The position numbers were made by a program, and so were the translations under genes. The notes below the pieces were generated by a model that was not told where the DNA came from, did no database searches, and saw only the letters and a list, made by a program, of their open reading frames with translations. DNA of 64,000 bases from Rossellomorea marisflavi. GTDB lineage: Bacteria > Bacillota > Bacilli > Bacillales > Bacillaceae_B. How positions within the stretch are numbered: the first letter of the stretch is position 1; each line of letters opens with the position of its first letter. This document shows, one piece after another, positions 20,332 to 32,013 of this stretch. Location of the stretch: the NCBI GenBank assembly GCA_003667865.1, contig CP033051.1:879501-943500 (forward strand), given 5' to 3'.

Positions 20332-20434
20332 GTCGAAAAATCTTTATATTGGGAATTTTGATAATAAAAGTGCTGTTTTCGATAATAAATTAGGAAAATC
20401 GATAATATATAGTAGATTTTCGATAATAAATCCT
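20332..20434 (-). repeat. phased array C, copy 1 (TTATTATC units)
   Basis: Reading on the minus strand, TATTATC units start at 20428, 20407, 20387 and 20366, then a terminal TAAAGATTTTTCGAC from 20346: steps 21, 20, 21, 20. Spacers are unlike those of copies 2 and 3. It lies upstream of the PlsY-paralogue operon. Confidence 0.8.
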
Positions 20435-20451
20435 CAAATCCTCCTTGAACC

Positions 20452-20465
20452 AAGGTCCGTCCCTC
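20452..20465. repeat. GTCCGTCCC motif copy before the pyrG terminator
   Basis: AAGGTCCGTCCCTC, 14 bases from the pyrG terminator. Confidence 0.65.
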
Positions 20466-20478
20466 TTAAAAACAATGC

Positions 20479-20516
20479 AAAAAACCCGTCTATGTACTAA
20501 CTTAGACGGGTTTTTT
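20479..20516 (-). terminator. pyrG terminator (bidirectional)
   Basis: CCCGTCTA and TAGACGGG arms with a ten-base loop, A-run on one side and TTTTTT on the other. Confidence 0.88.
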
Positions 20517-20528
20517 AGAAAAAAGGTT

Positions 20529-22133
20529 TTATTTTTCGCTATTTTCTAATGATGCGCGAATGAATTCACGGAATAGCGGTTGTGGTCTTGTTGGTCTTGA
20601 TGTGAATTCAGGGTGGAATTGAGATGCTACGAACCATGGGTGGTCTTTTAGCTCAATAATTTCTACTAAACGGCCATCTGGGCTTGTCCCTGAGAAGATA
20701 AACCCGGCATTTTCCATTTGTTCACGGTATGTGTTGTTAAACTCATAGCGATGACGATGGCGCTCGTACACAACTTCTCCATTGTATGCCTCATATGCTT
20801 TTGATCCTTGAATTAACTTACAAGGATATAAGCCTAAGCGTAGCGTACCACCAAGATCCTCGATATCTTTTTGTTCTGGTAAAAGATCAATAACTGGATA
20901 TGGTGTTTCTGGGTTAAGCTCGGCTGAATGTGCACCTTCTAGTCCTAAAACGTTACGAGCATATTCCACAGAAGCTAATTGCATTCCTAAGCAGATTCCT
21001 AGGAATGGAATTTTATTTTCACGAGCGTATTGTGTTGCAGCGATTTTCCCTTCTACTCCACGGTCACCGAAGCCACCTGGTACAAGGATTCCGTCAACAT
21101 CTTGCAATAGCTCAACTACATTCTCACTGTTTACAAGTTCAGAGTTTAGCCATTTAATTTCAATGTCACTATCAAATTTGTAGCCTGCATGACGTAATGC
21201 TTCTACTACCGAAATATAGGCATCTTGAAGCTCTACATATTTTCCTACTAGAGCAATCTTTGTTTTGTGAGTAAGATTACGTACTCGGTTCACAAGCTCT
21301 GTCCATTCCGTCATATCTGCATCACGGCAATCCAGCTTTAAGTGTTGACATGTAATTTGGTCTAGGTGCTGCTCTTGTAATGAAAGGGGAACAGCATACA
21401 GTGTATCTGCATCCATTGCTTCAATGACAGAATTTTTATCAATATCACAGAATAAAGCAATTTTGTCTTTCATATCTTGAGTCATTGGCATTTCTGTACG
21501 AACAACGATGACATTTGGTTGAATTCCTAAGCTACGAAGCTCTTTCACACTGTGCTGTGTAGGTTTTGTTTTCATTTCCCCAGCCGCTTTAATGTAAGGT
21601 ACAAGTGTACAATGGATATACATGACATTGTCACGACCGACATCACTCTTGATTTGGCGGATTGCTTCTAAGAATGGAAGTGACTCAATGTCCCCAACCG
21701 TTCCACCGATCTCAGTGATCACAATATCGGCTCCTGTTTCACGGCCTGCACGGAATACGCGCTCTTTGATTTCATTTGTGATGTGTGGAATAACCTGAAC
21801 AGTTCCGCCAAGGTAATCGCCTCGACGCTCTTTTTTCAGAACAGTAGAGTAGATTTTTCCTGTTGTAACACTACTATATTTTGTTAAGTTGATATCAACG
21901 AAACGCTCATAGTGTCCAAGGTCTAGATCCGTTTCTGCACCATCATCTGTTACGAAAACTTCTCCATGCTGATAAGGACTCATTGTACCTGGATCCACAT
22001 TTATGTAAGGATCAAATTTTTGAATCGTTACCTTCATTCCTCTGTTTTTCAATAGTCTTCCTAGTGAAGCGGCAGTGATTCCTTTACCTAATGAAGATAC
22101 TACCCCACCTGTTACGAAAATGTACTTTGTCAC
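20529..22133 (-). CDS. pyrG: CTP synthase
   Basis: 534 residues. Amidates UTP to CTP with glutamine. The N-terminal synthase domain begins [18 protein letters not shown] (P-loop); the C-terminal class I glutamine amidotransferase has the nucleophile Cys in FLGICLGMQ and the His-Glu pair in SQFHPEF. The start is GTG at 22133: GGGGG lies eight bases upstream and the protein then begins VTKYIFV as in the family; the longer frame from a TTG would include the ribosome site. Its leader contains a terminator-like structure. Confidence 0.95.
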
Positions 22134-29821: not shown

Positions 29822-29850
29822 TTCTTTTCCCCCATTTATTCGTATGTTTT

Positions 29851-30987
29851 TTATTTCACTAGATTTTTGCTAATGACGATACGTTGAATCTCACTAGTTC
29901 CTTCATAGATTTCGGTGATTTTGGCATCTCGGAAAAAGCGCTCGACCGGATATTCTTCTGTAAAACCATATCCTCCAAACACTTGAACTGCTTCTGTTGC
30001 TACTTCAACGGAAGTCTTCGAAGCGAATAGCTTTGCCATTGATGCTTCCATTCCACAAGGCTTTCCTTCTGCACGAAGGTTGGCAGCTCGATAGACTAAT
30101 AGTTTTGATGCTTCAACACTTGTTGCCATATCAGCAATCTTGAAGCCAACCCCTTGATTAGCTACGATCGGTCTTCCAAACTGAACACGCTCTTTTGCGT
30201 ATGCTGTTGCATGCTCATAAGCAGCCTCTGCTATGCCTAGTGCTTGGGCTGCAATTCCAATCCGGCCAACGTCCAGATTTCCCAAGGCAATCTTAAAGCC
30301 TTTCCCCTCTTCACCTAAGAGGTTTTCAGCAGGTACCTTCATATCCTCAAACGTTAATTGCAGTGTTCTTGAACCATGAAGCCCCATCTTTTTCTCGTCT
30401 TTTCCGAGAACCAGTCCAGGTGTATCCTTATCAACAATAAATGCAGACACACCACGGTTCCCTTGTTCCGGATCAGTAGAAGCAAAAACAATATAGGTGT
30501 CTGCCTCACCACCATTTGTAATGAACACCTTAGAACCATTAATGATGTAATGGTCTCCTTGTTTGACTGCTCTTGTTTTTAATCCTCCTGCATCAGATCC
30601 GGCAGCAGGCTCTGTTAAACAAAACGCTCCTAAGTATTCACCTGAAGCCAACTTCGGAACATATTTTTTCTTCTGTTCTTCATTTCCGTAATACAAGATT
30701 GGGTTCGTTCCAACAGATGTATGCACGGATAGAATCACTCCAACCGTTGCACTGACCCTTGATAACTCGTGAATGGCAATAATGTAAGAGGTAAAATCCA
30801 TCCCAGACCCGCCGTACTCCTCTGGAACAGTGATTCCCATTAGTCCAAGCTCACCCATCTTGTTTAAAATTTCTCTCGGAAAGTGTCCTGCCTCCATTTT
30901 TTCAATAAATGGAGTAATTTCTGTTTCGGCAAAATCCCGAACCATTTTGCGCATCATGTTCTGCTCTTCTGTAAAATGTAGCTCCAT
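29851..30987 (-). CDS. acyl-CoA dehydrogenase (MmgC-like)
   Basis: 378 residues, paralogue of the next gene. [18 protein letters not shown] is the flavin/substrate motif and [10 protein letters not shown] carries the catalytic Glu. Same operon as the hydroxyacyl-CoA dehydrogenase and thiolase. Resembles the mmgABC arrangement in B. subtilis. Substrate chain length cannot be read from sequence. Confidence 0.9.
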
Positions 30988-31013
30988 TATGTTCCCTCCT
31001 TGTTGCCAGATCC

Positions 31014-31865
31014 TTATTCGTAGCTATAGAAACCTCGGCCTGATTTCTTCCCTAGCCAGCCTGCTTTGACATATTTTCTTAGTAGTGGACATGGTCTGTA
31101 TTTGTCGTCACCAAAGCCTTCGTGTAATGTTTCCATAATGTATAGGCATGTATCTAAGCCGATGAAGTCAGCTAGTGTTAATGGACCCATTGGATGGTTC
31201 ATCCCAAGCTTCATCACTTCATCAATAGCTTCTTTGCTCGCAACACCTTCGTATAATGTAAAAATCGCTTCATTAATCATCGGCATAAGAATTCGGTTTG
31301 AAACGAATCCAGGAAAATCTTCTACTTCAACTGGAACCTTGCTTAATGTTTTCGTCATATCTTCTATTGATTGGTAGACTTCATCTGTAGTAGCAAGGCC
31401 GCGGATGATCTCTACTAGCTTCATGACTGGAACCGGATTCATAAAGTGCATGCCGATTACTTGCTCCGGACGTTTTGTCGCTGCTGCAATTTCTGTGATG
31501 GGTAGAGATGATGTATTTGTTGCAAGAATGGTGTGACTTGGTGCGATTTCATCTAGTTGAGCGAAGATTTTCGTTTTAATCTCCATATTTTCTACTGCTG
31601 CTTCAATGACAAGGTCCACTTCACGAGCTGATTGGATGTCGGTTGATGGTGTTAGTCTGCTTAGGATGTCTTCTTTCTCTGATTCTATTAATCTTCCTTT
31701 TTCAACTGAGCGTGAAAGGTTTTTGTTGATGGTGTTTAGGCCTCTGTCTAGGAATTCCTGTTTTAGGTCTTGTAGTGTTACTTGGTAGCCTGCTTGTGCG
31801 CATACTTGAGCGATTCCGGAGCCCATTTGGCCTGCTCCGATGACCATTACTTTTTTGATTGTCAT
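31014..31865 (-). CDS. 3-hydroxybutyryl-CoA dehydrogenase
   Basis: 283 residues. NAD-dependent oxidation of 3-hydroxyacyl-CoA. Rossmann motif [16 protein letters not shown] at the N-terminus, catalytic His in [26 protein letters not shown], and a helical C-terminal dimerisation domain ([19 protein letters not shown]). Corresponds to MmgB/Hbd. Confidence 0.93.
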
Positions 31866-31912
31866 GGTTGGTCCTCCTTTTGGTTTGGTTGTATTGTTGA
31901 TGATTTTGGTTT

Positions 31913-32013
31913 TATTATCGAAAATGGTTGTTTTATTATCATAATCATGGATATATTATCGATTTTGTGTATTTTATTATCGAAATTCGCGAAATAATTA
32001 TTTTTCGACAAAA
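31913..32013 (+). repeat. phased array C, copy 3
   Basis: TATTATC units at 31913, 31934, 31954 and 31975, then terminal TAATTATTTTTCGACAAAA from 31995: steps 21, 20, 21, 20, the same as copies 1 and 2. It starts 48 bp upstream of the 3-hydroxybutyryl-CoA dehydrogenase gene. Confidence 0.82.

Follow-up and report, generated by a model that had tools for sequence, protein, structure and literature searches.

How do short DNA arrays of one layout come to stand at several places in a bacterial chromosome, and what keeps their spacing? The question is raised by a 64,000-nucleotide stretch of the Rossellomorea marisflavi chromosome (contig CP033051.1, positions 879,501 to 943,500 of the forward strand; hereafter the window), which holds three intergenic arrays of the core TATTATC. 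A preliminary description, made from the letters alone, had assigned to all three a 21-20-21-20 spacing, a shared terminal sequence and differing spacers, and had argued from this for selection on helical phase and against simple copying. Our analysis partly confirms that observation and partly supports its interpretation. Judged by sequence comparison, the arrays look like old copies of a single ancestor, elements of about 100 bp scattered between genes. With moderate confidence, we assign them to a composite repeat dispersed between the genes of Rossellomorea and some other Bacillaceae; a DNA-binding protein probably holds its phased cores. The three arrays are:

20328..20434, minus strand: array 1, four TATTATC cores (21-20-21) and end ATATAAAGATTTTTCGACAAAA; between the pyrG 3' end (20529) and the plsY start (20257)
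23720..23826, plus strand: array 2, four cores (21-20-21) and end ATATAATTATTTTTCGACAAAA; between an rpoE-like gene (22416-22994, minus) and the 3' end of a methylmalonyl-CoA mutase fusion gene (24027)
31907..32013, plus strand: array 3, four cores (21-20-21) and end AAATAATTATTTTTCGACAAAA; between the start of the 3-hydroxyacyl-CoA dehydrogenase gene (31865, minus) and the 3' end of the thiolase gene (32249)

Phased cores in the window and across the genome

Exact cores start at 23726, 23747, 23767 and 23788 in array 2 and at 31913, 31934, 31954 and 31975 in array 3; in array 1 their lower coordinates are 20422, 20401, 20381 and 20360. The spacing first described holds for these four cores in all three arrays, but the fifth position (23808, 31995 and, on the minus strand, 20346) reads TAATTAT or TAAAGAT and is part of a distinct conserved end, ATATAAnnATTTTTCGACA. 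The shared terminal sequence was recovered as the 13-mer TTTTTCGACAAAA at 23814-23826, 32001-32013 and, on the minus strand, 20328-20340, each time 26 bp past the start of the fourth core.

Chance is not behind the arrays. TATTATC occurs 25 times in the window against a mean of 12.0 in 100 shuffles (standard deviation 3.2, largest 20), and 50 dinucleotide shuffles of the window contained no core pairs or triples at the array spacings. Chains of three identical 7-mers numbered four at lag 20/21; no other lag pair between 12/13 and 59/60 had more than one. In 464 kb of the own genome we counted seven such chains at lag 20/21 (one in a coding repeat), four at 21/22, four each at 41/42 and 42/43, and 0-1 at other lags; 400 kb of two relatives (G017 and G032) gave 14 at 20/21, nine at 19/20, five at 40/41, three at 41/42 and 0-1 elsewhere. 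Only lag 20/21 and its double are enriched in these stretches of the own genome and the two relatives. No lag 20/21 chain was found in 240 kb of four genera without a match to the sequence model described below, nor in 160 kb of four genera with one.

A genome-wide search for spaced cores, as proposed earlier, revealed 11 arrays on the 4.59-Mb contig (at about 112, 359, 828, 900, 903, 911, 2141, 2256, 2384, 3703 and 4425 kb). The exact three-core pattern gave five; a two-core pattern with one mismatch, with 36 matches against 16 in a reversed control, gave further candidates, and aligned inspection led to the 11. Their spacing is not random: ten share one register, with cores at -98, -77, -57 and -36 from the end of TTCGACA, and in the 828-kb array the second unit is displaced by 1 bp, to -78, and an extra unit stands at -119. 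Among the 44 cores, two are strongly altered (the third at 359 kb and the first at 3703 kb) and four carry a single-letter change. A sequence model was built from the 11 arrays and hence matches them by construction; its search of the own genome, with 150 of 5355 candidates scored, gave no further clear array. Next in rank came a fragment adjoining the 828-kb array (E 6e-5) and a site at 4580 kb (E 4.5e-4) that is not array-like. By eye, array positions look mixed with respect to the replication strand.

Descent, turnover and genomic placement

The letters of the spacers differ, as first described, but the spacers are related by ordinal position. In the own genome, spacers of the same ordinal had an identity of 0.502 against 0.451 for different ordinals, a difference reached in 0/500 shuffles, and in 2/500 when parity was kept, that is, when odd and even spacers were shuffled apart. 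The Rossellomorea aquimaris strain SAMM (29 arrays) showed 0.697 against 0.579, with 0/200 shuffles in either form of the test, and strain AcN35-5 (16 arrays) likewise gave 0/200 and, parity kept, 0/200. Since same-ordinal spacers are more alike, the arrays would descend from one dispersed composite element; for the arrays of one genome, descent from one multi-unit element is the most likely reading of the sequences. The spread of such an ancestor would explain the shared layout, so the exclusion of copying is not supported; the earlier argument is half right in that the cores outlasted the spacers after the spread. The preliminary description had itself named homologous spacers as the finding that would overturn it, and the ordinal likeness goes part of the way.

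Orthologous arrays of relatives were compared in 13 alignments, which represent 12 pairs (the L180 pair is present twice, also as L182 with [Bacillus] enclensis). Identical positions amounted to 395/406 in the cores, located by sequence in one partner (the query), 164/174 in the next three bases, 381/476 in the spacers and 1000/1716 in the flanks, the last figure including poor alignment. By these identities, cores are conserved above spacers and spacers above flanks. Alignments of sister species further indicate that unit number changes by entire units, with changes near 41 or 82 bp recurring; the differences were 41 bp (5 vs 3 units), 82 bp (5 vs 1, at two sites), 40 bp (7 vs 5) and 20 bp. 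At an orthologous site between a putative phospho-beta-glucosidase gene and a putative transporter gene, both named from sequence, species range from six units to one, and in some a second array type follows with five to one units. In others, GCGGAA...TTCCGC palindromic repeats replace the arrays at this site (upstream flanks of L303-L320; genomes G003, G006, G015, G022 and G031).

At E 0.01, matches to the model were present in 57 of 101 genomes, one of them the own genome. Within the genus, 13 of 36 genomes carry 20-38 matches and the others few; outside it, 22 genomes gave matches, some of them weak. An exact scan of named genomes found at least 117 stretches. Among the matches listed, most belong to R. 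aquimaris strains and [Bacillus] enclensis, followed by Bacillus sp., Metabacillus mangrovi, Fictibacillus, Piscibacillus and Peribacillus; six of those listed fall in unrelated organisms, and three of these six are low-complexity. A phage or plasmid home was rejected: viral contigs contained no exact three-core match, and blastn with array 3 found nothing in phages or plasmids. We found no account of these arrays in the open-access literature.

Arrays sit beyond gene 3' ends and seldom between divergent genes. Among the 153 TATTATC-type arrays of the fetched loci, convergent gene pairs flank 27, divergent pairs 8 and tandem pairs 63 (convergent vs divergent, p 0.002), after leaving out 43 that overlap open reading frames (ORFs) of at least 80 aa, judged probably spurious, and 12 at locus edges. 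The 153 come from among the matches listed and their loci were fetched with a 21-20 pattern, so step counts lean to 21-20. Nine of the 11 own arrays are found 53 to 263 bp from the 3' end of a gene that could be identified (hydroxybutyrate dehydrogenase, glyA, pyrG, mutase, thiolase, NlpC/P60, B3/4, MFS, and polysaccharide synthesis with DUF421), and no common functional theme was seen among the neighbours of the 11. A transfer-messenger RNA was looked for beside the 359-kb array and not found. Over 150 bp to the right of 130 arrays, C exceeds G irrespective of gene context (skew -0.27 to -0.39).

About half of the five-unit SAMM arrays (L087, L194, L161 and others) are framed by GGGTAT and ATACC and form a larger composite element. 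In 16 of 34 SAMM arrays, the first core is preceded by GGGTAT at a distance of 27 or 26 bp (control ATACCC on the left, 0), and in 13 of 34 the last core is followed by ATACC at 24 or 23 bp (control GGTAT on the right, 6). The frame is rarer in enclensis (GGGTAT 6/26, ATACC 5/26) and in AcN35-5 (4/25 each, with ATACC at +34 six times and left ATACCC seven times); JM7 has left GGGTAT in 0/10. The SAMM flank was also examined for a sigma-B promoter (GTTTAA with GGGTAT), which was rejected: it was present in 7/26, and shuffles averaged 4.0 and reached 11.

Around the arrays of the window, two further features were noted:

20479..20517, strand unassigned: pyrG terminator-like hairpin CCCGTCTA...TAGACGGG, with a T run on either strand
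51129..51141, minus strand: solitary TTTTTCGACAAAA with no array, upstream of the gene at 49761-51062

Array 1 sits past the hairpin, whose loop exceeds the length allowed in our hairpin scan and which was read by eye instead; the adjoining gene we take to be pyrG from its context. The lone 13-mer had been reported as a terminal unit near 51130, before a putative ywfO gene. It is real and has no array; of nine exact copies of TTTTTCGACAAAA in the genome, four are in arrays and five are likewise lone. Between array 3 and the thiolase gene (32060-32180), a long GC-rich inverted repeat was seen by eye.

Other cores, helical phase and curvature

Arrays of the same architecture but with other cores occur in the window and among relatives. 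In the window these are:

8709..8778, plus strand: array with core ATGGGAA, 21-bp steps
8998..9092, plus strand: array with core TAAACGAC, 21-bp steps, five units; overlaps a doubtful 113-aa ORF

Cores of sister arrays include TATTATCGACTTT, TATTATCAAAA, TTATTTTCAAA, TATCAGCGAAA, TAACGGCGAAA and TACGAGCC, among others, at an unchanged step of 20-21 bp; from the listings, a loose common form TTTAT-NNN-C may be read. The claim that helical phase is kept has held up, with ten of 11 own arrays in one register, the step kept by sister families, and cores changing less than spacers in orthologues. A two-turn step common to families with different cores favours sites that share one face of the helix, with a protein aligned along direct repeats.

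Two side observations concern such arrays. At 560 kb of the own genome (C1:560315-560659), two near-copies of a five-unit array with core AAACTTGTGC lie 250 bp apart. In G001 (C3, about 33.9-34.1 kb of the 8000-44000 stretch, L067), an array with core GTGGCTCGTA adjoins the palindrome TTAGAATCATTCTAA, which resembles a Fur/PerR box, and a small spore-protein-like gene sits between two arrays of this region.

The earlier suggestion of a bending element fared less well as a property shared by all arrays. An intrinsic bend, selected with no need of a protein, would account for predicted curvature at z -3.1 in the 11 own arrays and z -3.8 in 50 five-unit arrays, compared with -0.6 in the own flanks; however, any AT-rich repeat at two helical turns yields such curvature. 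The 29 arrays listed as other-core had a median z of -0.4, a set in which five proved to be TATTATC-type and two lay in coding repeats. Of the 22 non-coding other-core arrays that remain, 6 are curved beyond z -1.64 and 16 are not; two TATTATCGACTTT arrays (L134, L159) likewise show no such curvature. Curvature was rejected as the common trait on the count of 16/22. As it is weak in most other-core arrays while the step is kept, the shared trait is phase and not bend, and we consider a selected bend quite improbable as the explanation.

Explanations, known systems and meaning

The reading we prefer is as follows. The element would be a short tandem array of 20/21-bp units, often acting as 41-bp pairs, with conserved ends; it would have spread through the chromosome in the past and persist at given places by descent, gaining or losing whole units by recombination between units. 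The cores, one per two helical turns, would be direct-repeat sites of a protein lining up on one face of the DNA, and we infer that this putative protein may act on local chromosome structure or stop read-through past terminators and would not serve as a promoter switch. Several points weigh against this reading. Host function and protein are both inferred. Some genus genomes have almost no arrays (two matches each in G003, G026 and G027, one each in G028 and G034, none in G011), which makes the element dispensable. In the own family, neither terminal inverted repeats nor target duplication were found. Without the 828-kb array, the own-genome ordinal test still gave 0/500 but a weaker 8/500 with parity kept; [Bacillus] enclensis (13 arrays) gave 0/200, but 10/200 with parity kept, which is not clearly ordinal; and selection on each position could be another source of ordinal likeness. 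The way cores were located in the orthologous pairs also undercounts core loss, perhaps by half.

A purely selfish miniature transposable element, with repeats as sites for a transposase acting in trans and no use of the array to the host, is a doubtful though real possibility. Dispersed homologous copies in lineage-specific numbers are what it would leave; so is the preference for 3' ends and convergent genes seen in BOX and in insertion sequences, and the SAMM GGGTAT/ATACC flanks, which are inverted, could be its ends. Against it, no signal of target duplication was found, permuted pairs reaching the observed best in 21/40 and 13/40 runs (the copies are old), and cores are still constrained in copies that stay in place. 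The TnsB/Mu-type transposase (PF09299), the one transposase family searched for, is absent in the own genome and present in 6/36 genus genomes, that is, lacking in the other 30. Tn7-like transposon ends were rejected on the absence of this transposase from the own genome and of target duplication. We think it unlikely that the arrays are operators of a cooperative transcription factor controlling the adjacent operons. Two copies had been placed within 75 bp upstream of operons, and the distances hold: array 1 ends 71 bp from the plsY start codon and points at plsY, and array 3 begins 48 bp from that of the dehydrogenase gene, but array 3 points away from it. The kept phase would suit an operator, as would TGTCGAAAAA in the array end, which resembles the Spo0A box. 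The arrays nevertheless stand in both orientations toward genes, nine of 11 own arrays lie by 3' ends, divergent placement is rare (8 vs 27) and the neighbours lack a theme, so that control of adjacent operons is not borne out. An element acting as RNA or as promoter, whether a transcribed array or a row of overlapping reverse-strand promoters, is very improbable. The reverse strand of the three arrays does read TCGATA-N16/17-GATAAT across neighbouring units, and promoter activity has been reported for BrickBuilt segments (PMC4596501). Promoter-like sites in the region, however, number 29 against 28.8 in shuffles. A structured RNA element was rejected, with consensus folding at -0.14 and -0.13 kcal/mol without covariation and with two Rfam matches in the window at gathering threshold, neither at an array.

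Pneumococcal BOX, described as boxA-(boxB)n-boxC with reported terminal inverted repeats, target duplications and RNA stem-loops, is similarly an interspersed composite repeat with a tandem middle of strain-varying unit number and an excess between convergent genes; it differs in sequence and host, and none of these three features was found in the own family (PMC3049150). BrickBuilt of Porphyromonas gingivalis, a minisatellite in a miniature inverted-repeat transposable element with 19 intergenic copies of 23-nt units, shares the short tandem array with leader and tail, the strain-varying unit number and partly conserved unit positions; its units have no spacers and some copies have terminal inverted repeats matching an IS5-type element, in contrast to the 20/21-bp steps here and to the own family, in which neither terminal inverted repeats nor target duplications were found (PMC4596501). 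Our family resembles both in its dispersed intergenic copies of common descent (11 arrays with ordinal spacer likeness) and in a varying tandem middle between distinct ends, here the own conserved end and, in SAMM, flanks that recall BOX or BrickBuilt ends. The arrays evolve like BOX (PMC3049150) and BrickBuilt (PMC4596501), with an added helical-phase constraint that the consulted parts of either account do not mention. The enterobacterial BIME/REP sequences also have many extragenic copies, regular spacing and alternating units, and are protein binding sites; REPs, however, are palindromes in alternating orientation, whereas here we find direct repeats with no palindrome and no conserved fold (PMC2817692).

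Two proteins offer a model for a filament or wrap. BldC of Streptomyces forms a head-to-tail filament on direct repeats of varying number, and by our comparison its site AATTXXXX(C) resembles the loose core TTTATNNNC; its sites are 9-bp promoter sites, in contrast to the 20.5-bp arrays that lie mostly by 3' ends (PMC5859096). HTH_17 proteins occur in all 36 genus genomes and so do not discriminate, and a BldC-like protein was dropped as a discriminating candidate. RemA of Bacillus, a Bacillaceae ring protein, is described as wrapping DNA along periodic AT-rich repeats that precede promoters; it gives 7-bp protections every 10 bp at poorly conserved promoter-proximal sites, unlike a conserved core every 20.5 bp that varies between families (PMC8481266). 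Neither BldC nor RemA fits the arrays in detail.

A broader version of our reading can be offered tentatively, as a conjecture: Bacillaceae may carry genome-wide phased direct-repeat platforms that selection maintains beyond transcription units and to which an unrecognised protein of head-to-tail or DNA-wrapping type binds, as a chromosome-architecture or insulator system in which the core turns over between lineages and the 20.5-bp geometry is fixed. For BOX, BIME and similar repeats, the choice between a selfish element and one that is used often stays unsettled. In the present case, the sequence offers a handle on that question, namely a two-turn step across families with unrelated cores, together with cores that outlive spacers in orthologues. 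If a protein binds the arrays, they would represent a chromosome-organising or insulating system in Bacillaceae that is new to the open-access literature as far as we found; if no protein binds them, they would clearly exemplify helical phasing that copying has passed on.

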